A DNA stretch of 64,000 bases from Tomitella biformata AHU 1821 (lineage in GTDB: Bacteria > Actinomycetota > Actinomycetes > Mycobacteriales > Mycobacteriaceae): NCBI RefSeq assembly GCF_000524475.1, contig NZ_BAVQ01000023.1, positions 125,962-189,961 of the forward strand, given 5' to 3'. The translations under genes were made by a program, and so were the position numbers. This document shows, one piece after another, positions 13,727-24,485 of the stretch; position 1 is the first letter of the stretch; each line of letters begins with the position of its first letter. The notes under the pieces were generated by a model that made no database searches, had not been told where the DNA came from, and saw nothing but the letters and a program-made list of their open reading frames with translations.

Positions 13727-14380
13727 ATGACGAGTTCGAAGCTGCACAGGATTCTGGGTGCCGGCGGCGCGATCGCCCTGGCCGCGGGCATGGCCGCCAC
13801 CCTCGGCATGGGGGCCGCACAGGCAGAGTCCATCTCCTCCGACGAGATCGACGCCAGCTCCATCACCTTCACCCGCACCGTCGCCGGCGACGCCGTTGTC
13901 AACGGTGAGGTCACCACCGGCGACGAGATTCAGATCACCAACACCATCAACCGCAAGCTGCTCTGGCTCGTCTACTCGGCACAGGACAACCACCCCACCT
14001 GCATCGAGGCCGTCCCGAACACCTCGGCGTGGACCGTGGGCGGAAAGACGTACTCCAACAGCGGCGACACCGAGGACGGCACTATCCAGAAGCCCGACGA
14101 GGTCACCACCGGCGAGGGCTGGGCCAAGATCGACGCTGCGGGAATTAGCTCGTGGGAGGCCACTCCCCTGACCTGGACCCAGACCTACACGGTCAACTGC
14201 GACCCGGGCACGCTGAACACCGGTGGCTTGCAGTCGGACAGCACCGGCGGCAAAGACAACAAGGCCGACGTCGGCCCCACCATCACCGTGAAGGCCAAGC
14301 CGGTCATCCCGGGCCCTGGCGGCGGTGACGGCGCCGGGTCGCTCGGCAGCCTGTTCTCGATTTTCGGATCGCTGAGCTAA
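13727..14380 (+). CDS. Secreted HPTC-domain protein with GSLGSL tail (1 of 4)
   Basis: 217-aa exported protein. Residues 1-31 form a Sec signal peptide (KLHRI, then a hydrophobic core, then GAAQAES). The single beta-rich domain (residues ~40-180) has EIQITNTI, a Cys in DNHPTCIEAVP and a second Cys in WTQTYTVNC; the same layout occurs in the proteins at 16369 and 18093. A Gly/Pro linker (PGPGGGDGAG) leads to the C-terminal tail GSLGSLFSIFGSLS. ATG 13727 gives a perfect signal peptide. It is the only plus-strand member and ends in a strong terminator. The function is unknown; a role in the cell envelope is inferred. Confidence 0.8.
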   Translation: MTSSKLHRILGAGGAIALAAGMAATLGMGAAQAESISSDEIDASSITFTRTVAGDAVVNGEVTTGDEIQITNTINRKLLWLVYSAQDNHPTCIEAVPNTSAWTVGGKTYSNSGDTEDGTIQKPDEVTTGEGWAKIDAAGISSWEATPLTWTQTYTVNCDPGTLNTGGLQSDSTGGKDNKADVGPTITVKAKPVIPGPGGGDGAGSLGSLFSIFGSLS

Positions 14381-16368: not shown

Positions 16369-17958
16369 TTAGCAGCCCATCAGGGAGCCGAGCGAGCCAA
16401 GGCTGCCGAACACGTCCAGCGAGCCGAGGCTGCCCGCGTTGCACTCGTCGCCGCCTCCGTTGCCGTCGTCGCCGCCGTTGCCGCCGTTGCCATCACCGGG
16501 ATCGCCGCCCTCGGCGGGCTTCTCGGCGACATTGACCGTGGTGCTCACAGCGGTCCCATCGCCCACCTGGACAACCAGCGTGTGATCGCCGTGGTCCAAT
16601 GCGGACGTGATGCAACTGGCCGTGCCGTTCGCGCCCAGCGCGGCGTCCTGGCAGATCTCCACGCCGTCGACCTTGATCGACACAGCAGCGCCTTCGACGC
16701 CGTCCGGCTGTGTGACGGTGACCGTCACCGTCTCGCCGTCAATGGGCGCCTCCGGGCTGATTGCCACCGTCGGCTCACCGGCCTGGGGCTTCGCGTTGAC
16801 GGTGATCGACTTCTCGCTGGCCGGCGACGTGCCCGCGTTGTTGGTGGCGGTCACCTTGACGGTGGGAGTGCCCTCCGTCAGCGGACCAACCTGGCAGGAG
16901 AAATTCCCGTCGCTGGCGGCAGTGGCCTCGCACGTCTTGCCTGCGATATCGATATTCACAGTGGAGCCGGATGCGGCCTTACCGGAGACGGTGACAGTGT
17001 CGCCATCGTGGATCGGCTGCGGGCTGACCGCGATGCCGGTCGGCTTGCCCGGCGCCGCGGGGGCAGCCGCAACGGTGAAGTCCACCGTTGCGGATGGGCT
17101 GCCCGCCGTGTTGGTGGCGGTGACCGTCGCGGTGTGCGGGCCCGCGCCGAACGTGGCGGTGTCGATGGCGAACTCGCCGTTGATGTCAGAGTTGCCGGTG
17201 AACTCCTGGCCGCCGATCTTCACCGTCACAGCGGTATTCGGCGACGTTTTGCCCGTCACCTTCACCACATCGTTGCTGTTCGGACTCTGCGGGGAGACCA
17301 CGACATTCGACGGCGTGGCCGGGGCGGACTCAGCGACAGCGATGGTGGGGCCGGCGGACGTCAGACCACCCGCGTTGCCACCAGCCGTGCTGTTCCAGGT
17401 CAGGCCGCCTGTGGCCAGGGCCGACTGCACGGCACACTCCACCCGATAATCAGTCGACCAGGTAGCGGAATAGTTCGTGCCGAAGCCGTTGGTCAACTGC
17501 CAATCAGTCGGACCGTCGATCCGACTGACCTGCGTAACACCATCGTTGCGGTAATCGGCCGTGTACTCCTTGGACCCCAACTGCGGATCGCTGTCCCCAT
17601 CGTTTGAGTACGTTTGATATTTACCGTCGGACCACACCGTCAACTTCACAGATTCCGGCACCGGCACCAAGCACGTCGGATGGTGATCCTCCATCCAAGA
17701 CAAGCCATGCGCCGGCGCCGTGCCGGAGTTCGTCAGCTTATTGGTGATCGTCACCACCTCCCCCACCTTCGGCGCGTCATCACTGACCGACCGACTCCAA
17801 TCGATCTTCATCCCCGCGACATTGGTATTGATGGTCCCCGATGCCGATACCTCTGCCGCCGACGCCACCCCCGCACTCAAACCAACACCCAACGACGCCG
17901 CCAACACGGACGCCCCCACACCGGCGATGACCCGATGGATCACAATTCTCCTGGACAT
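16369..17958 (-). CDS. Secreted multi-Ig-like protein with HPTC domain and GSLGSL tail (2 of 4)
   Basis: 529-aa surface protein. Signal peptide at residues 1-34 (core VLAASLGVGLSAGVASAAE). The HPTC domain (residues ~38-210) has IDWSRSVSDDAPKVGEVVTI, Cys in EDHHPTCLVPVPESV and Cys in STDYRVECAV. It is followed by three to four bacterial Ig-like modules (residues ~215-480) of the type VTVSGKAASGSTVNIDIAGK, ending in VTATN. A Gly/Asn/Asp-rich linker leads to the tail AGSLGSLDVFGSLGSLGSLM-GC. ATG 17958 has AGAGG 7 nt upstream. The first 210 residues are nearly identical to the protein at 18093, so this is an Ig-extended duplicate. Adhesion or a structural role is inferred. No LPXTG motif is present. 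Confidence 0.85.
   Translation of the reverse strand: MSRRIVIHRVIAGVGASVLAASLGVGLSAGVASAAEVSASGTINTNVAGMKIDWSRSVSDDAPKVGEVVTITNKLTNSGTAPAHGLSWMEDHHPTCLVPVPESVKLTVWSDGKYQTYSNDGDSDPQLGSKEYTADYRNDGVTQVSRIDGPTDWQLTNGFGTNYSATWSTDYRVECAVQSALATGGLTWNSTAGGNAGGLTSAGPTIAVAESAPATPSNVVVSPQSPNSNDVVKVTGKTSPNTAVTVKIGGQEFTGNSDINGEFAIDTATFGAGPHTATVTATNTAGSPSATVDFTVAAAPAAPGKPTGIAVSPQPIHDGDTVTVSGKAASGSTVNIDIAGKTCEATAASDGNFSCQVGPLTEGTPTVKVTATNNAGTSPASEKSITVNAKPQAGEPTVAISPEAPIDGETVTVTVTQPDGVEGAAVSIKVDGVEICQDAALGANGTASCITSALDHGDHTLVVQVGDGTAVSTTVNVAEKPAEGGDPGDGNGGNGGDDGNGGGDECNAGSLGSLDVFGSLGSLGSLMGC
17739..17828 (-). repeat. 90-bp perfect direct repeat, copy 1
   Basis: Identical base for base to 18644-18733, and embedded in about 600 bp of high similarity. 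Encodes the NTNVAGMKIDWSRSVSDDAP-KVGEVVTITN part of the HPTC domain. Marks a recent gene duplication or gene conversion. Confidence 0.9.
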
Positions 17959-18092: not shown

Positions 18093-18863
18093 CTACTTCA
18101 AGCCGAGCGAGCCGAACAGATCCAGGCTGCCGAGGCTGCCGGTACCGCCGGAGCTATCGCCCGGCAGATTGCCTCCACTGCCATTGCCCCCGCCGTCATT
18201 CCCGCCATCACCGGGATTGGGATCTGAGTCCTTCGCCAGGACCGCGATGGTGGGGCCAGCGGACGTCAGAACACCCGCATTGCCACCAGCCGTGCTGTTC
18301 CAGGTCAGGCCGCCCGTCGCCAGGGCCGGCTGAACCGCACAGTCGACTCGATAATCAGTCGACCAGGTAGCGGAATAGCTCTTGGTGCTGCCGTTGGTCA
18401 ACTGCCAATCATTCAGCCCGTCGATCCGGCTGACCTGCGTAACCCCATCGTTGCGGTAATCAGCCGTGTACTCACCGGCCTCCAACTGCGGACCGCTGCC
18501 CCCATCGTTGAAGTACGTCTTGTCCTTGCCACTTGATATCACCGTCAACTCCACCGATTCCGGCAACGGCACCAGGCACGTCGGATGGTGATCCTCCATC
18601 CACTTCAGGCCATGAAGCGTCTTCGTACCAGAGTTCGTCAGCGTATTGGTGATCGTCACCACCTCCCCCACCTTCGGCGCGTCATCACTGACCGACCGAC
18701 TCCAATCGATCTTCATCCCCGCGACATTGGTATCGAAGGTCCCCGATGCCGACGCCTCATCCGCCGACGCCACCCCCGCACCCAACCCGACACCCAACGA
18801 CGCCGCCAACACGGACGCCCCCACACCGGCGACTGCCCGGCGGAACCAAATATTCTGAGTCAT
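18093..18863 (-). CDS. Secreted HPTC-domain protein with GSLGSL tail (3 of 4)
   Basis: 256-aa exported protein. Signal peptide (VLAASLGVGLGAGVASADE) and HPTC domain (residues ~38-205: WMEDHHPTCLVPLPESVELT, YTADYRNDGVTQVSRIDG, STDYRVDCAVQPALATGGLT). A Gly/Asp/Asn-rich linker then leads to the tail GSLGSLDLFGSLGLK. It lacks the Ig-like modules of its neighbour at 16369 but is otherwise its twin. ATG 18863 is chosen because AAGGGG lies 6 nt upstream; ATG 18869 would touch that site. It starts 26 bp after the stop of the Thr-rich surface protein (18889), so it may be the seventh gene of the SipW operon. Confidence 0.82.
   Translation of the reverse strand: MTQNIWFRRAVAGVGASVLAASLGVGLGAGVASADEASASGTFDTNVAGMKIDWSRSVSDDAPKVGEVVTITNTLTNSGTKTLHGLKWMEDHHPTCLVPLPESVELTVISSGKDKTYFNDGGSGPQLEAGEYTADYRNDGVTQVSRIDGLNDWQLTNGSTKSYSATWSTDYRVDCAVQPALATGGLTWNSTAGGNAGVLTSAGPTIAVLAKDSDPNPGDGGNDGGGNGSGGNLPGDSSGGTGSLGSLDLFGSLGLK
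18644..18733 (-). repeat. 90-bp perfect direct repeat, copy 2
   Basis: Identical to 17739-17828; see that entry. The copies are 905 bp apart in the same orientation, so recombination between them would delete one linker/tail region and fuse the two genes in frame. Confidence 0.9.
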
Positions 18864-18888
18864 GCGCATCCCCTTCTAGGACTATTGG

Positions 18889-19956
18889 CTAACCGAAGTT
18901 GGGCATGTTCTGCCCGCTGTCCTTGTAGAACTTCCACGTGCCGTCCTGGGGCGACTCCATGATTCGGTACACCTCGGTGTCGCCGACGATCCACAGTTGG
19001 CCGTTGTGCCAGTGCAGGTCCGAACCCTTCTCGACGCGTCCGCTGGCGAGCTCGTTGCCCTCGGCATCGACGACGGCGATCTTGTTGCCGCCCTTCATCC
19101 AGCCTGCGGTCAGCTCGCCATTCTCGACGGTGTCGCTGAGCACGGGCTTCGGGTCCTCTGTCGGAGTGGTCTCCGGCGTGGTCGTGGTGGTGCTGGGCGG
19201 AGTCATCGTCAGGGTGGTCGACGTCGGCGGGGTGCTCGTCGACGCCTCAGCGGAGGTTGTCGGAGCCTCCGTGGTTGAGGTCGGGGCCTCCGTCGTCGTG
19301 GTCTCGTCAGCCTCGGAGTCCTCAGTCACGTCCTGCTGCGGAGCCATCCGCATTACTTCCGGTGCGCCCCCACCCGCCTGGATGCCACTTGGCACTGGAG
19401 CGCTCGGGTCCCAGGTATGGGTGTTCTCCCACGGTTCATTGATTGCCCAGTCGGAGAGTCCGCCCGAGCAATAGGTGTCCGCTACTGTCGAAGTATAAAT
19501 CCCTTGCCCAATCCAACCGGAAGAAATCTGCCTCGTTGCATCCGTTTCACCACTCGCGATATTCACGGTGTGGACGCGCGCGATGAACGTTTGAGCAGTC
19601 CTGCTGAAATTGAACTTCTTGCTTGTGCCACTCTCGAAAGTATCTGAAATAACTTCACCGTTGCTGCGCACCACGACAACCCTGTATTTCATGCCTGGCC
19701 CAGCGCTAGGCCAGGAGATGTTGGCACTGCGAAAGCCAAGGGTTCCGCTATTTGAACACGTCGCCGTTGACGGCAGCGGCGTCGGATAAAAGTTCCCCGT
19801 CGCCACCTGGGACCCCGTGGTAGTGACGTCATCAGTCGGGTTGGCCATCGTCCCCGTAGCTTGGGCCAGTCCAAAGGTCGCCGCGGCGACGCCGCCGATG
19901 GCTATCAAAGACCGCACCGACAACTTGCGGGTGCGCGCACGTCGCAGATCAAACAT
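18889..19956 (-). CDS. Thr-rich stalked surface protein, SipW-operon cargo
   Basis: 355-aa exported protein with no family I recognise. The N-terminus is a SipW-like signal (basic FDLRRARTRK, hydrophobic IAIGGVAAATFGLAQATGT, then DVTTTGSQVATGNFY). An Ig/fibronectin-like domain (residues ~55-190, FRSANISWPSAGPGMKYRVV, IARVHTV) has Cys in TATCSNSG and DTYCSGG. A Thr/Ser/Pro/Glu stalk (residues ~215-275) is a likely O-mannosylation target. The C-terminal domain (residues ~280-355) is IAVVDAEGNELASGRVEKG plus LHWHNGQLWIVGDTEVYRI. ATG 19956 overlaps the stop of the upstream SipW-type peptidase by 8 bp, so the two are translationally coupled. Confidence 0.75.
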   Translation of the reverse strand: MFDLRRARTRKLSVRSLIAIGGVAAATFGLAQATGTMANPTDDVTTTGSQVATGNFYPTPLPSTATCSNSGTLGFRSANISWPSAGPGMKYRVVVVRSNGEVISDTFESGTSKKFNFSRTAQTFIARVHTVNIASGETDATRQISSGWIGQGIYTSTVADTYCSGGLSDWAINEPWENTHTWDPSAPVPSGIQAGGGAPEVMRMAPQQDVTEDSEADETTTTEAPTSTTEAPTTSAEASTSTPPTSTTLTMTPPSTTTTTPETTPTEDPKPVLSDTVENGELTAGWMKGGNKIAVVDAEGNELASGRVEKGSDLHWHNGQLWIVGDTEVYRIMESPQDGTWKFYKDSGQNMPNFG

Positions 19957-20560
19957 TGTGAGCCTCCTGAAGGTCCCCGCGGGTTTCGTGAGTGTCGACG
20001 GGGGCGTCGTTCGAAGTGCCGGCACCGGTGAGGGCCAAGCGTCGGTCTTTGGTTCTTCCGAATGCGATGACAAGCACAGCGCCTACCAAGCCGCCGCCGA
20101 GGAAGATGGCGAGCGGGCTAGACAGCCAGGCGACGATATATCCGAGTCCTCCAACGCTGAAGAACACCCGATCCGCTTCGGTGATCGTGTAGGGCAGGCG
20201 GTCAGGGGCGTTGTTGTCGTCGCCCTTGAGGGTGGCGACAACCGCTTCCCCGCCCGTCGGCTCGAGGCTGTACACCCTGTGCGTGATCCGCACGCCATGG
20301 TCGTTGTTCACACTGACCACATCGCCGACGGCCAGATCGGTCGCGGGAACGGTCTTGGCCAGCGCCAGCGCGCCGGTGGAGATCTGCGGCGACATCGAGC
20401 CCGAGCGGAACACCAGGGGCTTAATGCCGAACAGCAGCGAGGCCAGCGTGGCGATGATGCAGATCAGCCCGGCGGTCGCGGCAACATTCAGCGCGATCTC
20501 CTTGCCTCGGCTGCGTGCCGGCGACGCCGACTCATCGGTGAATGTCATCGCGCTGGTCAC
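19949..20560 (-). CDS. SipW-type signal peptidase I, copy B
   Basis: 203-aa signal peptidase of the S26B (archaeal/ER, SipW) type, which uses Ser-His rather than Ser-Lys. Two membrane helices frame the catalytic region: TAGLICIIATLASLLFGI (residues ~30-47) and YIVAWLSSPLAIFLGGGLVG (residues ~143-162). The nucleophile Ser is in FRSGSMSPQISTG and the His is in VRITHRVYSL. The C-terminal tail is cytoplasmic and hydrophilic. The start is GTG 20560, overlapping the TGA of the preceding TasA-like gene (GTGA); an ATG five codons on is possible. It lies immediately upstream of the Thr-rich protein and downstream of TasA-like protein 3, its likely substrates. Confidence 0.85.
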   Translation of the reverse strand: MTSAMTFTDESASPARSRGKEIALNVAATAGLICIIATLASLLFGIKPLVFRSGSMSPQISTGALALAKTVPATDLAVGDVVSVNNDHGVRITHRVYSLEPTGGEAVVATLKGDDNNAPDRLPYTITEADRVFFSVGGLGYIVAWLSSPLAIFLGGGLVGAVLVIAFGRTKDRRLALTGAGTSNDAPVDTHETRGDLQEAHNV

Positions 20561-21162
20561 TGCCCTTCGGCGGTGAAGTCGAAGCCGAGGTCGGCGATCT
20601 TGAACTGCTCGGCTTGGCCAGCGCCCGGCGCGACGGCAACCTGAATGCAGACGGTGTCCGTGGCACCGGAAACCAGCGTCCGTTCCGAGACGAGCGTCGG
20701 GTTGCTACCGACAATCCCCTCGTCACCGATGCGGTCACCCGAGCACTCGCTGCCATTTTTGACGCCCGCCTCATGCACGCTCACAGTGAGCTTGCCGAGC
20801 AGCTCCGACGAGCCCGAACCCGATGCGGACACGGCCCACTTGTAGTCAATAGTTCCGGTGTTCTCGACCGTGATCTCGCCAGCCGTGCTCTGACCAGGCT
20901 GCATGCTCGTCTGGTTGAGATTCGTGAAGGTGGCAGTGGGCCGCTGGCCATCGACCTTCATCTGGATCGACGCGGTGCTGAACATGCCGGTGGTCGCGGT
21001 GGCGGTGTCGGACCAGGCCGCCATCGTGCCAACAGCGCCCAAGCCCAGGACCATGCCGAGCGAGAGGACGGCTCGGGTGCGGGTCCAGCCGGTTTCCCCC
21101 AGGCGTCCGCGCATCCCCGCACCGACACGCGCGTCGGCGCGCGATTGCTGATTGTTAGACAT
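20557..21162 (-). CDS. SipW-dependent exported protein, TasA/camelysin-like (3)
   Basis: 201-aa exported protein with the alternate signal peptide recognised by SipW. After a basic stretch (MRGRLGETGWTRTR) comes AVLSLGMVLGLGAVGTMAAW, then SDTATATTGMFSTASIQMKV; the AAWSD after the core is the hallmark of SipW substrates. The mature domain is the TasA-type jellyroll (QPGQSTAGEITVENTGTIDY, then TVCIQVAVAPGAGQ, then FDFTAEGQ). ATG 21162 overlaps the stop of SipW-type peptidase A by 8 bp (ATGTCTAA). TasA-fold proteins form fibres in Bacillus; fibre formation here is inferred. Confidence 0.8.
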   Translation of the reverse strand: MSNNQQSRADARVGAGMRGRLGETGWTRTRAVLSLGMVLGLGAVGTMAAWSDTATATTGMFSTASIQMKVDGQRPTATFTNLNQTSMQPGQSTAGEITVENTGTIDYKWAVSASGSGSSELLGKLTVSVHEAGVKNGSECSGDRIGDEGIVGSNPTLVSERTLVSGATDTVCIQVAVAPGAGQAEQFKIADLGFDFTAEGQ

Positions 21163-21868
21163 TCTGCTGTCCCATTTTCGTTTCAGTGGTTGATGCCGGC
21201 GTGGAACCAGCATGCGAATCGTCTGAGTCGGTTTCACGCCGCTTGTCCCGGAGCCCGCTGATCACCATCCACACCGCGTATCCGCCCAGGCCCGCCGCAG
21301 CGACCGTGATGAGGATCGAACGCGATTGGCCGTTGATCACCGTGTTCACCCGGCCGAGGTACGGCACTGAGTAGATGACGCGGCCGTGGATCTGCTCGGG
21401 CACCAGCGACCAGGAGTCAGAGATGGGGTTGTTATCGCCCTTGGTGTGGATCCGCCGCTCACCTTCGCCGGTGTAGTAGATGCCGTCGATGCGGTGGGTG
21501 ACCACCGCGGGATCGCCGGACACCGGCTGGAACGTGATGACGTCCCCCGTCGACAGTTCGTCGTTGGGGATCGGCTTGACCACGATGAGCGTGCCCGGCG
21601 GCATCGTCGGTTCCATCGAGCCGGTGAGCACCGTGTACGCCGTCGACCCAGTGAGCCGTGGAATAACGACCATCACCGCGAGAAAGCCGACCATCAACAG
21701 CAATGCCACCCAGGAGACGACGGTACGAACCCACCACCAGATGGTGGTCTGCTCGTCCGCGTCCTTTTCGGGCTGGGGCTGCTGATCCGATGCTTCTGCG
21801 TGGGCTGAGTGCCGAGGAATGTACTCGACAGTGTCGCCCTCACCGTGGCTGCTCGCGGTGATCGTCAT
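21155..21868 (-). CDS. SipW-type signal peptidase I, copy A
   Basis: 237-aa signal peptidase of the S26B type with an N-terminal acidic cytoplasmic extension (~40 residues). TM1 is VVSWVALLLMVGFLAVMVV. The catalytic Ser is in VLTGSMEPTMPPGTL, the catalytic-type His in AVVTHRIDGIYYTG, and the acidic KGDNNP box completes the family pattern. TM2 is ILITVAAAGLGGYAVWMVI. ATG 21868 overlaps the TGA of TasA-like gene 2 by 4 bp, and its own stop overlaps TasA-like gene 3. A dedicated enzyme wedged between its presumed substrates is the standard SipW/TasA arrangement. Confidence 0.88.
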   Translation of the reverse strand: MTITASSHGEGDTVEYIPRHSAHAEASDQQPQPEKDADEQTTIWWWVRTVVSWVALLLMVGFLAVMVVIPRLTGSTAYTVLTGSMEPTMPPGTLIVVKPIPNDELSTGDVITFQPVSGDPAVVTHRIDGIYYTGEGERRIHTKGDNNPISDSWSLVPEQIHGRVIYSVPYLGRVNTVINGQSRSILITVAAAGLGGYAVWMVISGLRDKRRETDSDDSHAGSTPASTTETKMGQQNV

Positions 21869-22410
21869 GACTGGCTAACCGAGCTGGCGTCGAAGGTGAA
21901 CGTGGCGTTGGTTCCCGTGCTGGCACCCGCAGAATTGCCCAGCGTGGCCCGCAGGCACAAGATCTGCATCTGCCCCGCCGGCACGAGCTGCTCAGAGAAC
22001 CCCGCGCCGTCCATGGGCCCGTCGTAAATCTCCGTGCCCACGTCGCCCGTCTCCGTGCAGGCGGCCTCGTTCGCGACCGTCGCCACCCGCAAGCTCAACG
22101 GCGGCGGAGTGGCGCTGTTGAGGATGACATCCGACAACAGATAGCTCATCTGCACGTTGCCGGAGTTGATCACCGGAAGCGGCATCTGGACACTATCGCC
22201 CGGGCCCTTGTTCTCCAGGCTGAAGCCGTCGAGGTTGAACTGCTTGACCCCGTCGGTGCCAGCGGAGATATCGAGCAGGCCGGCGGTGATGGTGCCGCCG
22301 CCGGACGCTTCTACTGAATCGCGCCACAGCGCGCCGGTCTGCTGCACCGAGACGAACCCGATGAGCAGAGCCGACGACGCTGCGATCGCCCATTTGTACT
22401 GGGACTTCAC
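21865..22410 (-). CDS. SipW-dependent exported protein, TasA/camelysin-like (2)
   Basis: 181-aa exported protein. The alternate signal peptide reads KWAIAASSALLIGFVSVQQT then GALWRDSVEASGGGTITAGL: a hydrophobic core followed by ALW-x-D and a Gly/Thr-rich stretch ending in AGLLDI, as in SipW substrates. The mature jellyroll (FSLENKGPGDSVQMPLPVIN, SGNVQMSYLLSDVIL) contains two Cys (EAACTETG, ILCLRAT) that could form a disulfide. ATG 22410 follows GAAGGTC. It is separated from TasA-like gene 1 by 46 bp containing the direct repeat CTACTAGTTG, and coupled to peptidase A by a 4-bp overlap. Confidence 0.8.
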   Translation of the reverse strand: MKSQYKWAIAASSALLIGFVSVQQTGALWRDSVEASGGGTITAGLLDISAGTDGVKQFNLDGFSLENKGPGDSVQMPLPVINSGNVQMSYLLSDVILNSATPPPLSLRVATVANEAACTETGDVGTEIYDGPMDGAGFSEQLVPAGQMQILCLRATLGNSAGASTGTNATFTFDASSVSQS

Positions 22411-22456
22411 GTGACCTTCTGACTACTAGTTGATGACCTACTAGTTGTGGAGCTGA

Positions 22457-22972
22457 CTACGGGGTGAGTACCTGCTCGAGCAGGACCGTTCCGGCACCGA
22501 TGGTGGCCGTCTCGTTGAAGCCATCCTGACCCGTGGTGTCCGACTTGAACTCCACCTCGGTGGTGAACGAGACGGGACCGGACGCGATGATCGGCGAGGC
22601 GTTGGTGTCCGACGAGCTCACAGTGAGCCGATCGTTGGTCTTCAGGTCGCCAGTCAGGTTGCCGAGCGAGGGAATGAGCTCAGCCTTCAGGTTGGTGCCG
22701 CTCAGGGTCACGTTGTACGTGGAGGTGTACTTGACCTTGTCTCCCGGCACGAGCTTGTCGTTGACCTGGTCGAACGCCGTGTTGACCTTGCTGCCGCTGG
22801 CCCACGTCCAAACACCGGCCGAGGTCTCGGCAACCGCCATCGAGCCAGCTGTGACCGTGCCAGCACCCGTGGTGTTGCCGGATGCGTTCCATGCGGCGAA
22901 CGAGCCGGCACCGCCAGCGAGGAGCAGTGCGGCTGCACCGGCGGCGACGGCGCCCTTGGTGGTCTTCTTCAT
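22457..22972 (-). CDS. SipW-dependent exported protein, TasA/camelysin-like (1)
   Basis: 171-aa exported protein and first gene of the operon. It shows the clearest alternate signal peptide: MKKTTKGAVAAGAAALLLAG, then GAGSFAAWNASGNTTGAGTV, with the SFAAW motif after the core. This matches my memory of the NCBIfam group named alternate signal-mediated exported protein, RER_14450 family (not checked). The mature part is Cys-free, with KLVPGDKVKYTSTYNVTLSG as the conserved TasA-type strand pair. ATG 22972 has AAAGGA 8 nt upstream; GTG 22993 would place the start before that site. As first gene with its own ribosome site it is probably the most abundant subunit (inference). Confidence 0.82.
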   Translation of the reverse strand: MKKTTKGAVAAGAAALLLAGGAGSFAAWNASGNTTGAGTVTAGSMAVAETSAGVWTWASGSKVNTAFDQVNDKLVPGDKVKYTSTYNVTLSGTNLKAELIPSLGNLTGDLKTNDRLTVSSSDTNASPIIASGPVSFTTEVEFKSDTTGQDGFNETATIGAGTVLLEQVLTP

Positions 22973-23137
22973 CTGATTTGTCCTTTGCTTCACAACCGAC
23001 GCCGGTGCGGGACTGCACAGGCGATAGATCGAGAGTTCGGCCTGCTATGCGGCCATCCCCCTGGTCCAACCCGATTTCCCGGGCCGGGTCAGCTGCACAA
23101 CGCGCCGGAGCGCATCAGCTGAAGTTCTTGTGTGCCG

Positions 23138-23167: not shown

Positions 23168-24058
23168 TTAGCTGCCGAGGCTGCCGAGGCTGCCGAGCGA
23201 GCCGGAACTGCTCCCGGCACTGCCACTACCGCCCACCGGCGTCACCTTCACGGTTCCGGCGTTGGCGGATGGGCCAGTCCCGCCATCGTTCTTCGCAGTG
23301 ACGCTGACCTGGTGGTCACCCGGCGAGGTGATCGTGAGGTCGCAGCTGAAGGCACCCGTCGTCGCGTCGGCCTCAGTGGTGCATGTCGCTCCCCCGCCGC
23401 TCACCGTGACGGTGCTGCCGGGCTCGGCCTTGCCGGAGACCGTGACAGGAGTGCCCGCCTCGACCTGGGAGCCACTGAGCGTCAGATCCGTCGGGGCACC
23501 CGGTGCGACGGCAGCGGGCGCGTCCTCGGTCAGCTGGAAGCCCCAACCTGGGGTGATCCCGAAGCCCTGCTTCGTTTCGCTCCCCGGCAGACCGAGGAGG
23601 TACTCGACCGGGGTGCCGACATTCTTCGGGAGCGCCTTCTGCTGCAGAACGATCCGAGTCGTCGCTTCCGCACCCGGCCCGATGACGACCTGCTGGCCCT
23701 TCTGGCCGTCGATCGCTCCTCGCACAGTCGCGGTGCCGTCATCGGTCACAGACCAATTCTGGCTGTAGATGGTGAGCGTGGCCGGGACGTCGCAGATGTT
23801 GCGGACGTCGAACGCCAGGTGTGTGGCCTCATAGCCTGGGATCGGGTTGATGGTGTTCCAAGTTGGGTCGAACTCGTCCAGCCCCACCCACGGGCTTCCG
23901 CCCTGAGACGTCTCGAGGCAATCTGCGGTGATGTCATCGCCCGGCGCGGCCGAGGCGACGCCAGACGCGAGGCCCGCGACGAGCAGCGCCGCCGGCAGTG
24001 TGGCGAACATCGCAGCGATGCGCCGCGGGAGATGAAAAACACGATCGTTCAGATGCAT
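23168..24058 (-). CDS. Secreted protein with Ig-like module and GSLGS tail (4 of 4)
   Basis: 296-aa exported protein upstream of the SipW operon on the same strand. Signal peptide: PRRIAAMFATLPAALLVAGL then ASGVASAAPGDD. The N-terminal domain (residues ~40-180) has Cys in ITADCLET and DVRNICDVPATLTIYSQNW, the latter strand resembling TasA-like folds. One bacterial Ig-like module follows (residues ~190-265: VSGKAEPGSTVTVSGGGATC, ending VSVTAKNDGG). A Gly/Ser linker leads to the tail SGSLGSLGSLGS. ATG 24058 is my choice; ATG 24070 is four codons upstream and neither has a clear ribosome site. The domain differs from the HPTC type, so the tail is shared across unrelated ectodomains. Confidence 0.78.
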   Translation of the reverse strand: MHLNDRVFHLPRRIAAMFATLPAALLVAGLASGVASAAPGDDITADCLETSQGGSPWVGLDEFDPTWNTINPIPGYEATHLAFDVRNICDVPATLTIYSQNWSVTDDGTATVRGAIDGQKGQQVVIGPGAEATTRIVLQQKALPKNVGTPVEYLLGLPGSETKQGFGITPGWGFQLTEDAPAAVAPGAPTDLTLSGSQVEAGTPVTVSGKAEPGSTVTVSGGGATCTTEADATTGAFSCDLTITSPGDHQVSVTAKNDGGTGPSANAGTVKVTPVGGSGSAGSSSGSLGSLGSLGS

Positions 24059-24485
24059 GCCGATGATCATGCGTCTAGGACTACCGTCTTGTCCAGCTTT
24101 TGCTGAACTCAGGACCAAAATTAGACCGTTTGGATGACAAACCCGGGTCGATTCAGCATTTTACGACATGCATCCAATAATTTTGCGCGTGAGAAAGTTT
24201 CCACGATCCGCGAGGGATTAACCTCTCGCGACCAATCGCGCGCTCACCTGCGCCGTTTGTAGCTGCCTTCAGGCTCGCACGCCACCGAGATGATTCCTGA
24301 TTGAACTTCCTCCGCTATCGAAAACGGATTAGACGTACCAATTTCTAAGCTAGGCGAACTACCGGTCGACGGTACGGCCCGACCATTAATTGAAATGCGC
24401 GCACATAAACGTACTCTCGCGCCATGAAAGAAGACAGCGCGGGCAACGGAGGAGGGGCGGGCCGCCGCACCCGAGCGCGCGTGGG
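24059..24485. other. A/T-richer intergenic region
   Basis: No credible gene. Lower GC than its surroundings, with a 6-bp dyad CGCGAG ... CTCGCG at 24209-24230 that could be an operator for the gene at 24058. It also lies past the end of the BASS transporter gene. No clear terminator was found. Confidence 0.5.

Follow-up and report, generated by a model that had tools for sequence, protein, structure and literature searches.

The window analyzed in this study is a stretch of 64,000 nucleotides from Tomitella biformata AHU 1821 (contig NZ_BAVQ01000023.1, positions 125,962 to 189,961). It encodes an operon of six genes on the minus strand: three TasA-like cargo proteins (C1, C2, and C3), two signal peptidases of the SipW type (PA and PB), and a stalk protein (G6). 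Sequence comparison and a structure model indicate that this TasA-class export operon, with its two dedicated peptidases, is conserved and extends beyond the mycolata. We think it rather probable that the six genes act together to export and assemble a TasA-class surface fiber, similar to that of Bacillus biofilms, and that PB and G6 are one functional unit within the system. The most interesting feature of the system, the fusion of PB and G6 into a single protein, is absent from the window itself, which probably holds a derived, split form.

Organization of the operon

The six open reading frames (ORFs) follow one another in the order C1 (22457-22972), C2 (21865-22410), PA (21155-21868), C3 (20557-21162), PB (19949-20560), and G6 (18889-19956), all on the minus strand, as given in the first-pass annotation of this DNA. 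That annotation had also coupled all six genes by overlaps. The overlap sizes are correct (C2/PA 4 bp, PA/C3 8 bp, C3/PB 4 bp, and PB/G6 8 bp), but they join only the five genes from C2 to G6, as C1 lies upstream of C2 with a gap of 46 bp. C1 starts with an ATG at 22972; position 22993, previously taken as the end of the operon, is an upstream in-frame GTG. A promoter and terminator scan around the operon gave nothing above shuffled sequences, so that the view of one operon rests on the overlaps and on conservation.

Gene order was compared in 81 loci, being the window and 80 stretches taken from the surroundings of the stronger C3 hits in the family (a subset of those listed). These loci were picked by their C3 match and the presence of C3 is therefore built into all gene-order counts. 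PA, PB (80 and 84 genes, respectively), and cargo genes were called as best matches to the window proteins. A second scan of 60 named loci shares many contigs with this set. The full order C1-C2-PA-C3-PB-G6 recurs in 59 of the 81 loci (window included) and in 40 of the 60 named loci, and the arrangement in the window is thus not due to chance. The core C2-PA-C3-PB is present in 63/81 loci. Apparent C2-PA fusions, seen as long PA ORFs (loci L037, L053, L068, L094, L096, L101, and others), were rejected since the extra N-terminal parts look like out-of-frame extensions; in L037, which was checked in detail, C2 is an ORF of its own.

The TasA-like cargo proteins

C3 starts with an ATG and has an A-A-W signal peptide with a predicted cut after Ala48 (21019-21021). 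It scores 30.9 bits against TIGR04088 (SipW-dependent signal peptide; cut-off 19) and falls just short of the gathering score of the Pfam camelysin/TasA family PF12389 (21.6 vs 22.5 bits). The AlphaFold2 model of C3, based on 80 sequences, has a mean predicted local distance difference test score (pLDDT) of 76.6, with most of the mature core above 80 and the signal below 50. Structure comparison was done with Foldseek and VIA. The TasA fiber (8AUR) is at the top of both lists (Foldseek E-value 1.2e-6, the sole match below 0.001; VIA Z-score 9.3 over 138 residues at 3.3 Å), and the model has the TasA beta-sandwich fold. Behind it rank a sialidase domain (Z 8.3) and then pilins (Pap and Fim) and cannulae with Z-scores of about 7 to 8, matches that would carry no weight by themselves. 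The best sequence match, below threshold, is AbpX of the archaeal bundling pili (E-value 0.42).

C1, with an A-A-W signal and an ATG start, exceeds the cut-off of 60 for the alternate-type signal peptide family TIGR04089 with 117.8 bits. C2 (A-L-W signal) and C3 remain below it (25.7 and 12.1 bits, respectively). Against TIGR04088, C1 scores 10.2 bits, which is below the cut-off, and C2 and G6 have no match at E <= 1. In the profile library scan, C2 and G6 exceed no family cut-off, and a PF12389 search of the window proteins listed no match for C1 or C2. Profile comparison aligns C3 with C2 over the full length (E-value 8.8e-24) and, more weakly, with C1 (E-value 1.9e-8); the C1 and C2 profiles align over 56 columns only, at the signal end. 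The earlier designation of all three as TasA-like is supported, for C3 by its model and for C2 and, more weakly, C1 by homology to C3.

The A-A-W and A-L-W signatures were correctly recognized in the first-pass annotation. The predicted P2′ residue is a tryptophan in 87/102 C1, 80/81 C2, and 90/90 C3 sequences. The threonine of the preceding T-x-A is found in 78/81 C2 and 90/90 C3 sequences, and T or S in all 102 of C1. Sites with an aromatic P2′ are cut poorly by LepB of Escherichia coli, and SipW cuts that of TasA in Bacillus subtilis (PMC10269814, in excerpt). A dedicated enzyme would therefore make sense for C1 to C3.

The two SipW-type signal peptidases

The hallmark of S26B signal peptidases (the SipW or archaeal and endoplasmic reticulum (ER) type) is a Ser/His pair in place of Ser/Lys. 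Both PA (Ser84 at 21617-21619 and His125 at 21494-21496) and PB (Ser55 at 20396-20398 and His94 at 20279-20281) contain these motifs, as annotated, and they are kept in their relatives: the catalytic Ser in 79/80 PA and 84/84 PB proteins and the catalytic His in 79/80 and 83/84. The two gaps in these counts are pieces of frameshifted genes in locus L043. In this locus (also L115, Prescottella defluvii), PA and PB are each split into two open frames, with the cargo genes intact.

The assignment as SipW-type peptidases is borne out by TIGR02228, for which PA (85.6 bits) and PB (62.1 bits) both exceed the cut-off of 51.85. They remain far below the cut-off of 190 for NF046067, the Bacillus SipW equivalog (78.7 and 52.5 bits). 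By sequence, they are relatives of Bacillus SipW and not SipW itself. PA and PB form two old, well separated clades (support 100). In the genome from which the window derives (4.7 Mb, 112 contigs), TIGR02228 matches PA and PB only, and a search with PB adds one weak match (E-value 0.0126). Cargo searches of the same genome yield C1, C2, and C3, and otherwise weak places only (E-values 0.09, 0.14, and 1.1), with no further SipW-type cargo above cut-off. Both peptidases therefore probably serve this locus, in line with the annotation of dedicated enzymes.

G6 and its fusion to PB

G6 (ATG start) consists of a signal peptide with a T36-x-A38 site (19843-19851), a fibronectin type III (FN3) domain (residues 55-158; 19483-19794), a low-confidence Thr/Pro stretch, and a confidently predicted beta domain from about residue 270 to 350 (18907-19149; pLDDT > 90). 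The model and alignment comprise 73 of 86 sequences, the weaker ones being left out, with a mean column identity of 20%; A38 is invariant in this alignment and T36 nearly so. The FN3 domain reaches a VIA Z-score of 10.7 over 99 residues to the lambda tail-tip protein; Foldseek gave no match below 0.001 for G6. The description of G6 as a Thr-rich stalk protein is accurate, but it overlooked that G6 itself appears to be a cargo with a T-x-A site. T and A of this site occur together in 37/38 separate and 41/48 fused G6 sequences, and the profiles of C3 and G6 align at the signal/T-x-A region only (38 columns, E-value 1.6e-7).

Among the 84 PB genes, PB and G6 share one open frame in 48, a separate G6 comes next in 31, and neither applies to five. 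PB-G6 is likewise fused in 43 of the 60 named loci, and six of the seven named loci outside the mycolata have a fused protein with a G6-profile match. Rhodococcus erythropolis NBRC 15567 (L124) also carries the fused form. In the fused proteins, the peptidase is joined by a linker to a hydrophobic segment, which has a site of the kind T-x-A-A-F-T-D and leads into the FN3 part, the Thr-rich stalk, and the C-terminal domain. A hydropathy scan of 46 of them most often revealed one segment before the catalytic Ser and at least two after it, which would place the G6 part outside the cell. The motif [TS]xAx[WFY] follows the internal hydrophobic core in 20/48 fused tails from the 80 stretches and in 16/25 tails of a wider set (including one locus of the same family, L164), compared to 3% of the other windows of the same tails. 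The shorter [TS]xA is uninformative, as it occurs in 48 to 61% of control windows in these Thr/Ala-rich tails. Locus L042 contains tandem cargo-block repeats, the later copies of which keep C1, C2, C3, and G6 with no peptidase detected; in two copies from this locus, G6 begins with the start of PB and the peptidase part is gone.

A tree of PB was built by a quick method with seven PA rows as outgroup; 46 of its 115 inner branches are open, and rows from outside the 80 stretches were counted as fused if their tail exceeds 130 residues. The 73 fused and 31 separate rows require six state changes, at least two of which are forced by the starred branches. Since the deep rows are fused and the separate rows nested, the fused form is probably the older one, and was probably split more than once. 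The PB of the window belongs to a clade of nine rows (support 100), all sharing the split form, and a sequencing error is therefore an unlikely cause of the split. In the open PMC literature, we found no recognized description of a two-peptidase SipW operon in actinobacteria or of a SipW-type peptidase fused to cargo.

Pairing of peptidases and cargo

The first-pass annotation proposed that each peptidase serves the cargo encoded next to it. Gene linkage agrees with this: PA is preceded by C2 in 77/79 cases and PB by C3 in 81/84, the three other PB genes being located behind a piece of their own broken gene, near a contig start, and on the other strand. More telling than the C3-adjacency counts is that C1-C2-PA and C3-PB-G6 are inverted or reordered as units. 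C3-PB-G6 and C1-C2-PA-C1 lie on opposite strands in four loci (L043, L045, L046, and L047), C1-C3-PB=G6 (PB and G6 fused) precedes a block with C2 and PA in eight (L042, L048, L049, L050, L055, L056, L057, and L059), and the C3-PB unit is doubled in L072, L081, L083, and L088. A pairing of C2 with PA, and of C3 and G6 with PB, is thus favored by linkage and by the fusion (48/84), and by these two only.

Proposed mechanism and alternative explanations

TasA assembles by donor-strand exchange (PMC9674648; PMC10151520, in excerpts). A donor-strand fiber is likely here as well, given that the C3 model matches the TasA fiber subunit best. In the mechanism we propose, the aromatic residue just past the cut in the signals of C1 to C3 would make them poor substrates of ordinary signal peptidase I, and cleavage at T-x-A would be the task of the membrane peptidases PA and PB. 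Once free, the N-terminal segment would probably fill the groove of the next subunit, leading to polymerization, and G6, the FN3-stalk protein with its related export signal, would serve to cap the fiber, to anchor it, or for display on it. In the fused form, a single polypeptide in many Actinomycetia, the G6 signal is internal and follows the peptidase's second membrane helix, so that PB could release the C-terminal cargo that it carries, either in cis or from a neighboring molecule. Internal signals in viral polyproteins are cut by signal peptidase. PB-G6 may be a self-releasing polyprotein, in which an ER-type peptidase, an internal SipW-type signal, and a surface stalk are combined and self-cut, with the fused state ancestral in Actinomycetia, splits on more than one occasion leaving the 8-bp overlap of the window, and each peptidase matched to its own cargo block. 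We advance this fuller account tentatively, giving it somewhat less than an even chance.

Several observations weigh against parts of this account. C3 is the sole cargo of the three whose fold was predicted. Locus L034 has C3-G6 but no peptidase within the stretch, and L042 has another two C1-C2-C3-G6 sets that lack one; in L032, PB is on the opposite strand to C3-G6, and in L052, PA is located behind G6. Action in trans must therefore be possible. In the 69 loci with one PA, PB, C2, and C3 each, partial correlations of distances do not favor the neighboring pairs: they amount to 0.28 for C2-PA and 0.43 for C2-PB, 0.23 for C3-PB and 0.13 for C3-PA, and 0.11 for G6-PB and 0.29 for G6-PA. For C2 and C3, zero lies within the bootstrap ranges of the differences; for G6 the ranges speak against PB, so that G6 points to PA. 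Most G6 signals also lack an aromatic P2′, with W or F in 8/38 separate and W, F, or Y in 23/48 fused sequences; in the window the residue is Asn, which makes the need for a dedicated enzyme less clear. TIGR04088 detects the internal signal in one of ten fused proteins, below the cut-off. With the signal models of C1, C2, and C3, the scores of G6 signals amount to no more than a few bits, the C3 model being best in 19/38 separate signals and 37/57 fused windows (including 11 second pieces).

The absence of a pairing signal in the distances, the peptidase-free or rearranged loci, and the T-x-A common to all four cargo classes would also be expected if PA and PB were redundant, or differed in timing or amount and not in cargo, with either enzyme cutting all four. 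We regard this as a possibility of some standing, yet PA and PB are separate clades of long duration that stand side by side as C2-PA-C3-PB in most loci, and the signal peptides clearly differ among the three TasA-like classes (by models trained on the same sequences). It is rather unlikely, in our estimation, that the G6 part is not released at all and that its hydrophobic segment stays uncut, G6 being a membrane-tethered ectodomain of the peptidase (or signal-anchored where separate) that holds the fiber base or the cell wall. The frequency of the fusion and the loss of the aromatic P2′ in many G6 proteins fit such a tether, but few columns of G6 are as well preserved as T36 and A38, which is what cleavage at the site would predict, and G6 is a stand-alone gene in 31/84 cases. 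Equally doubtful is a role of the cargo as non-polymerizing beta-sandwich proteins that are secreted for a coat or for adhesion. Middling Z-scores are common among beta sandwiches, a sialidase domain ranks second for C3, and C3 narrowly misses PF12389; against this, 8AUR leads both lists and is the sole Foldseek match below 0.001, and the best sub-threshold sequence match is a protein of archaeal bundling pili.

Distribution

Within the GTDB family, TIGR02228 has a match in 212/401 genomes (142 above cut-off) and C3 in 131/401 genomes and 20/31 genera. In the class, the C3 profile matches 54/394 genomes and 23/138 genera, and in the genus Tomitella two of five genomes have a TIGR02228 match above cut-off. 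The 60 named loci belong mainly to Rhodococcus and Rhodococcoides, and also to Prescottella, Gordonia, Dietzia, Tomitella, and Speluncibacter. The seven outside the mycolata are from Arthrobacter (four), Psychromicrobium, Acaricomes, and one metagenome-assembled genome of the Nocardioidaceae. A function tied to the mycomembrane, as the annotation had suggested, was therefore dropped: the same operon occurs in Arthrobacter and these other genera, and C3-type proteins extend to further families within the class.

C3 of the window is 65-72% identical to the copies in genomes G258, G221, G212, G244, and G121, of which G212 and G121 are Rhodococcus (L103 and L104), and 46% identical to that of Tomitella cavernea. 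Its PB clusters with the loci of the same five genomes, and PB of T. cavernea (L037) is found elsewhere in the tree. As the window copy is nearer to those of Rhodococcus than to that of T. cavernea, it is likely that a transfer took place or that paralogues were lost differentially.

Relation to known systems

The tapA-sipW-tasA operon of B. subtilis similarly has a SipW-type peptidase beside TasA-type cargo, with a cargo stop overlapping the sipW start (PMC10151520, in excerpt), and C3 has a predicted TasA fold. The B. subtilis operon contains one peptidase instead of two, and neither an FN3-stalk cargo nor a peptidase-cargo fusion was found there in the excerpted text. In B. cereus (sipW-tasA, calY, and capP), SipW handles three exported proteins, two of them TasA homologues, but there is one SipW and the transcription units are separate (PMC13082335, in excerpt). 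Clostridium perfringens BsaA-SipW also combines SipW with matrix proteins (PMC7395162, in excerpt); C3 has a weak match to the corresponding TIGR04090, below the cut-off (22.7 vs 60 bits). Archaeal bundling pili (AbpX) and cannulae (CanA) are among the structural or sub-threshold sequence matches of C3, with weak scores.

TasA-type fibers are described for Bacillus and archaea in the literature covered, as far as the excerpts extend. With the conserved two-peptidase version found in Rhodococcus, Gordonia, Dietzia, Prescottella, and Arthrobacter, actinobacteria would have a surface-fiber system amenable to testing by gene deletion. That a signal peptidase is naturally fused to a probable cargo suggests that the two are enzyme and substrate, and allows self-cutting of an internal signal to be tested.

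Neighboring genes

Directly upstream of C1, the minus-strand gene U1 (23168-24118) encodes a protein with an ordinary signal peptide, an Ig-like domain, and a GSLGS tail; it has this position in 19/81 loci, window included. Directly behind G6 are two tandem paralogous secreted proteins (18093-18869 and 16369-17958), the first of which starts 19 bp past the G6 stop and therefore may share its transcript. Among the 80 fetched loci, a single further protein of this kind turned up (L089). GSLGS-type tails end the secreted proteins at 16369-17958 and 23168-24118 around the operon, and similar tails end the protein at 18093-18869 and a plus-strand ORF ending at 14380. Genome-wide, the strict GSLGS repeat pattern is confined to the ends of two ORFs, 16369-17958 and 23168-24118 (three overlapping matches in two places, compared to one in the reversed control).

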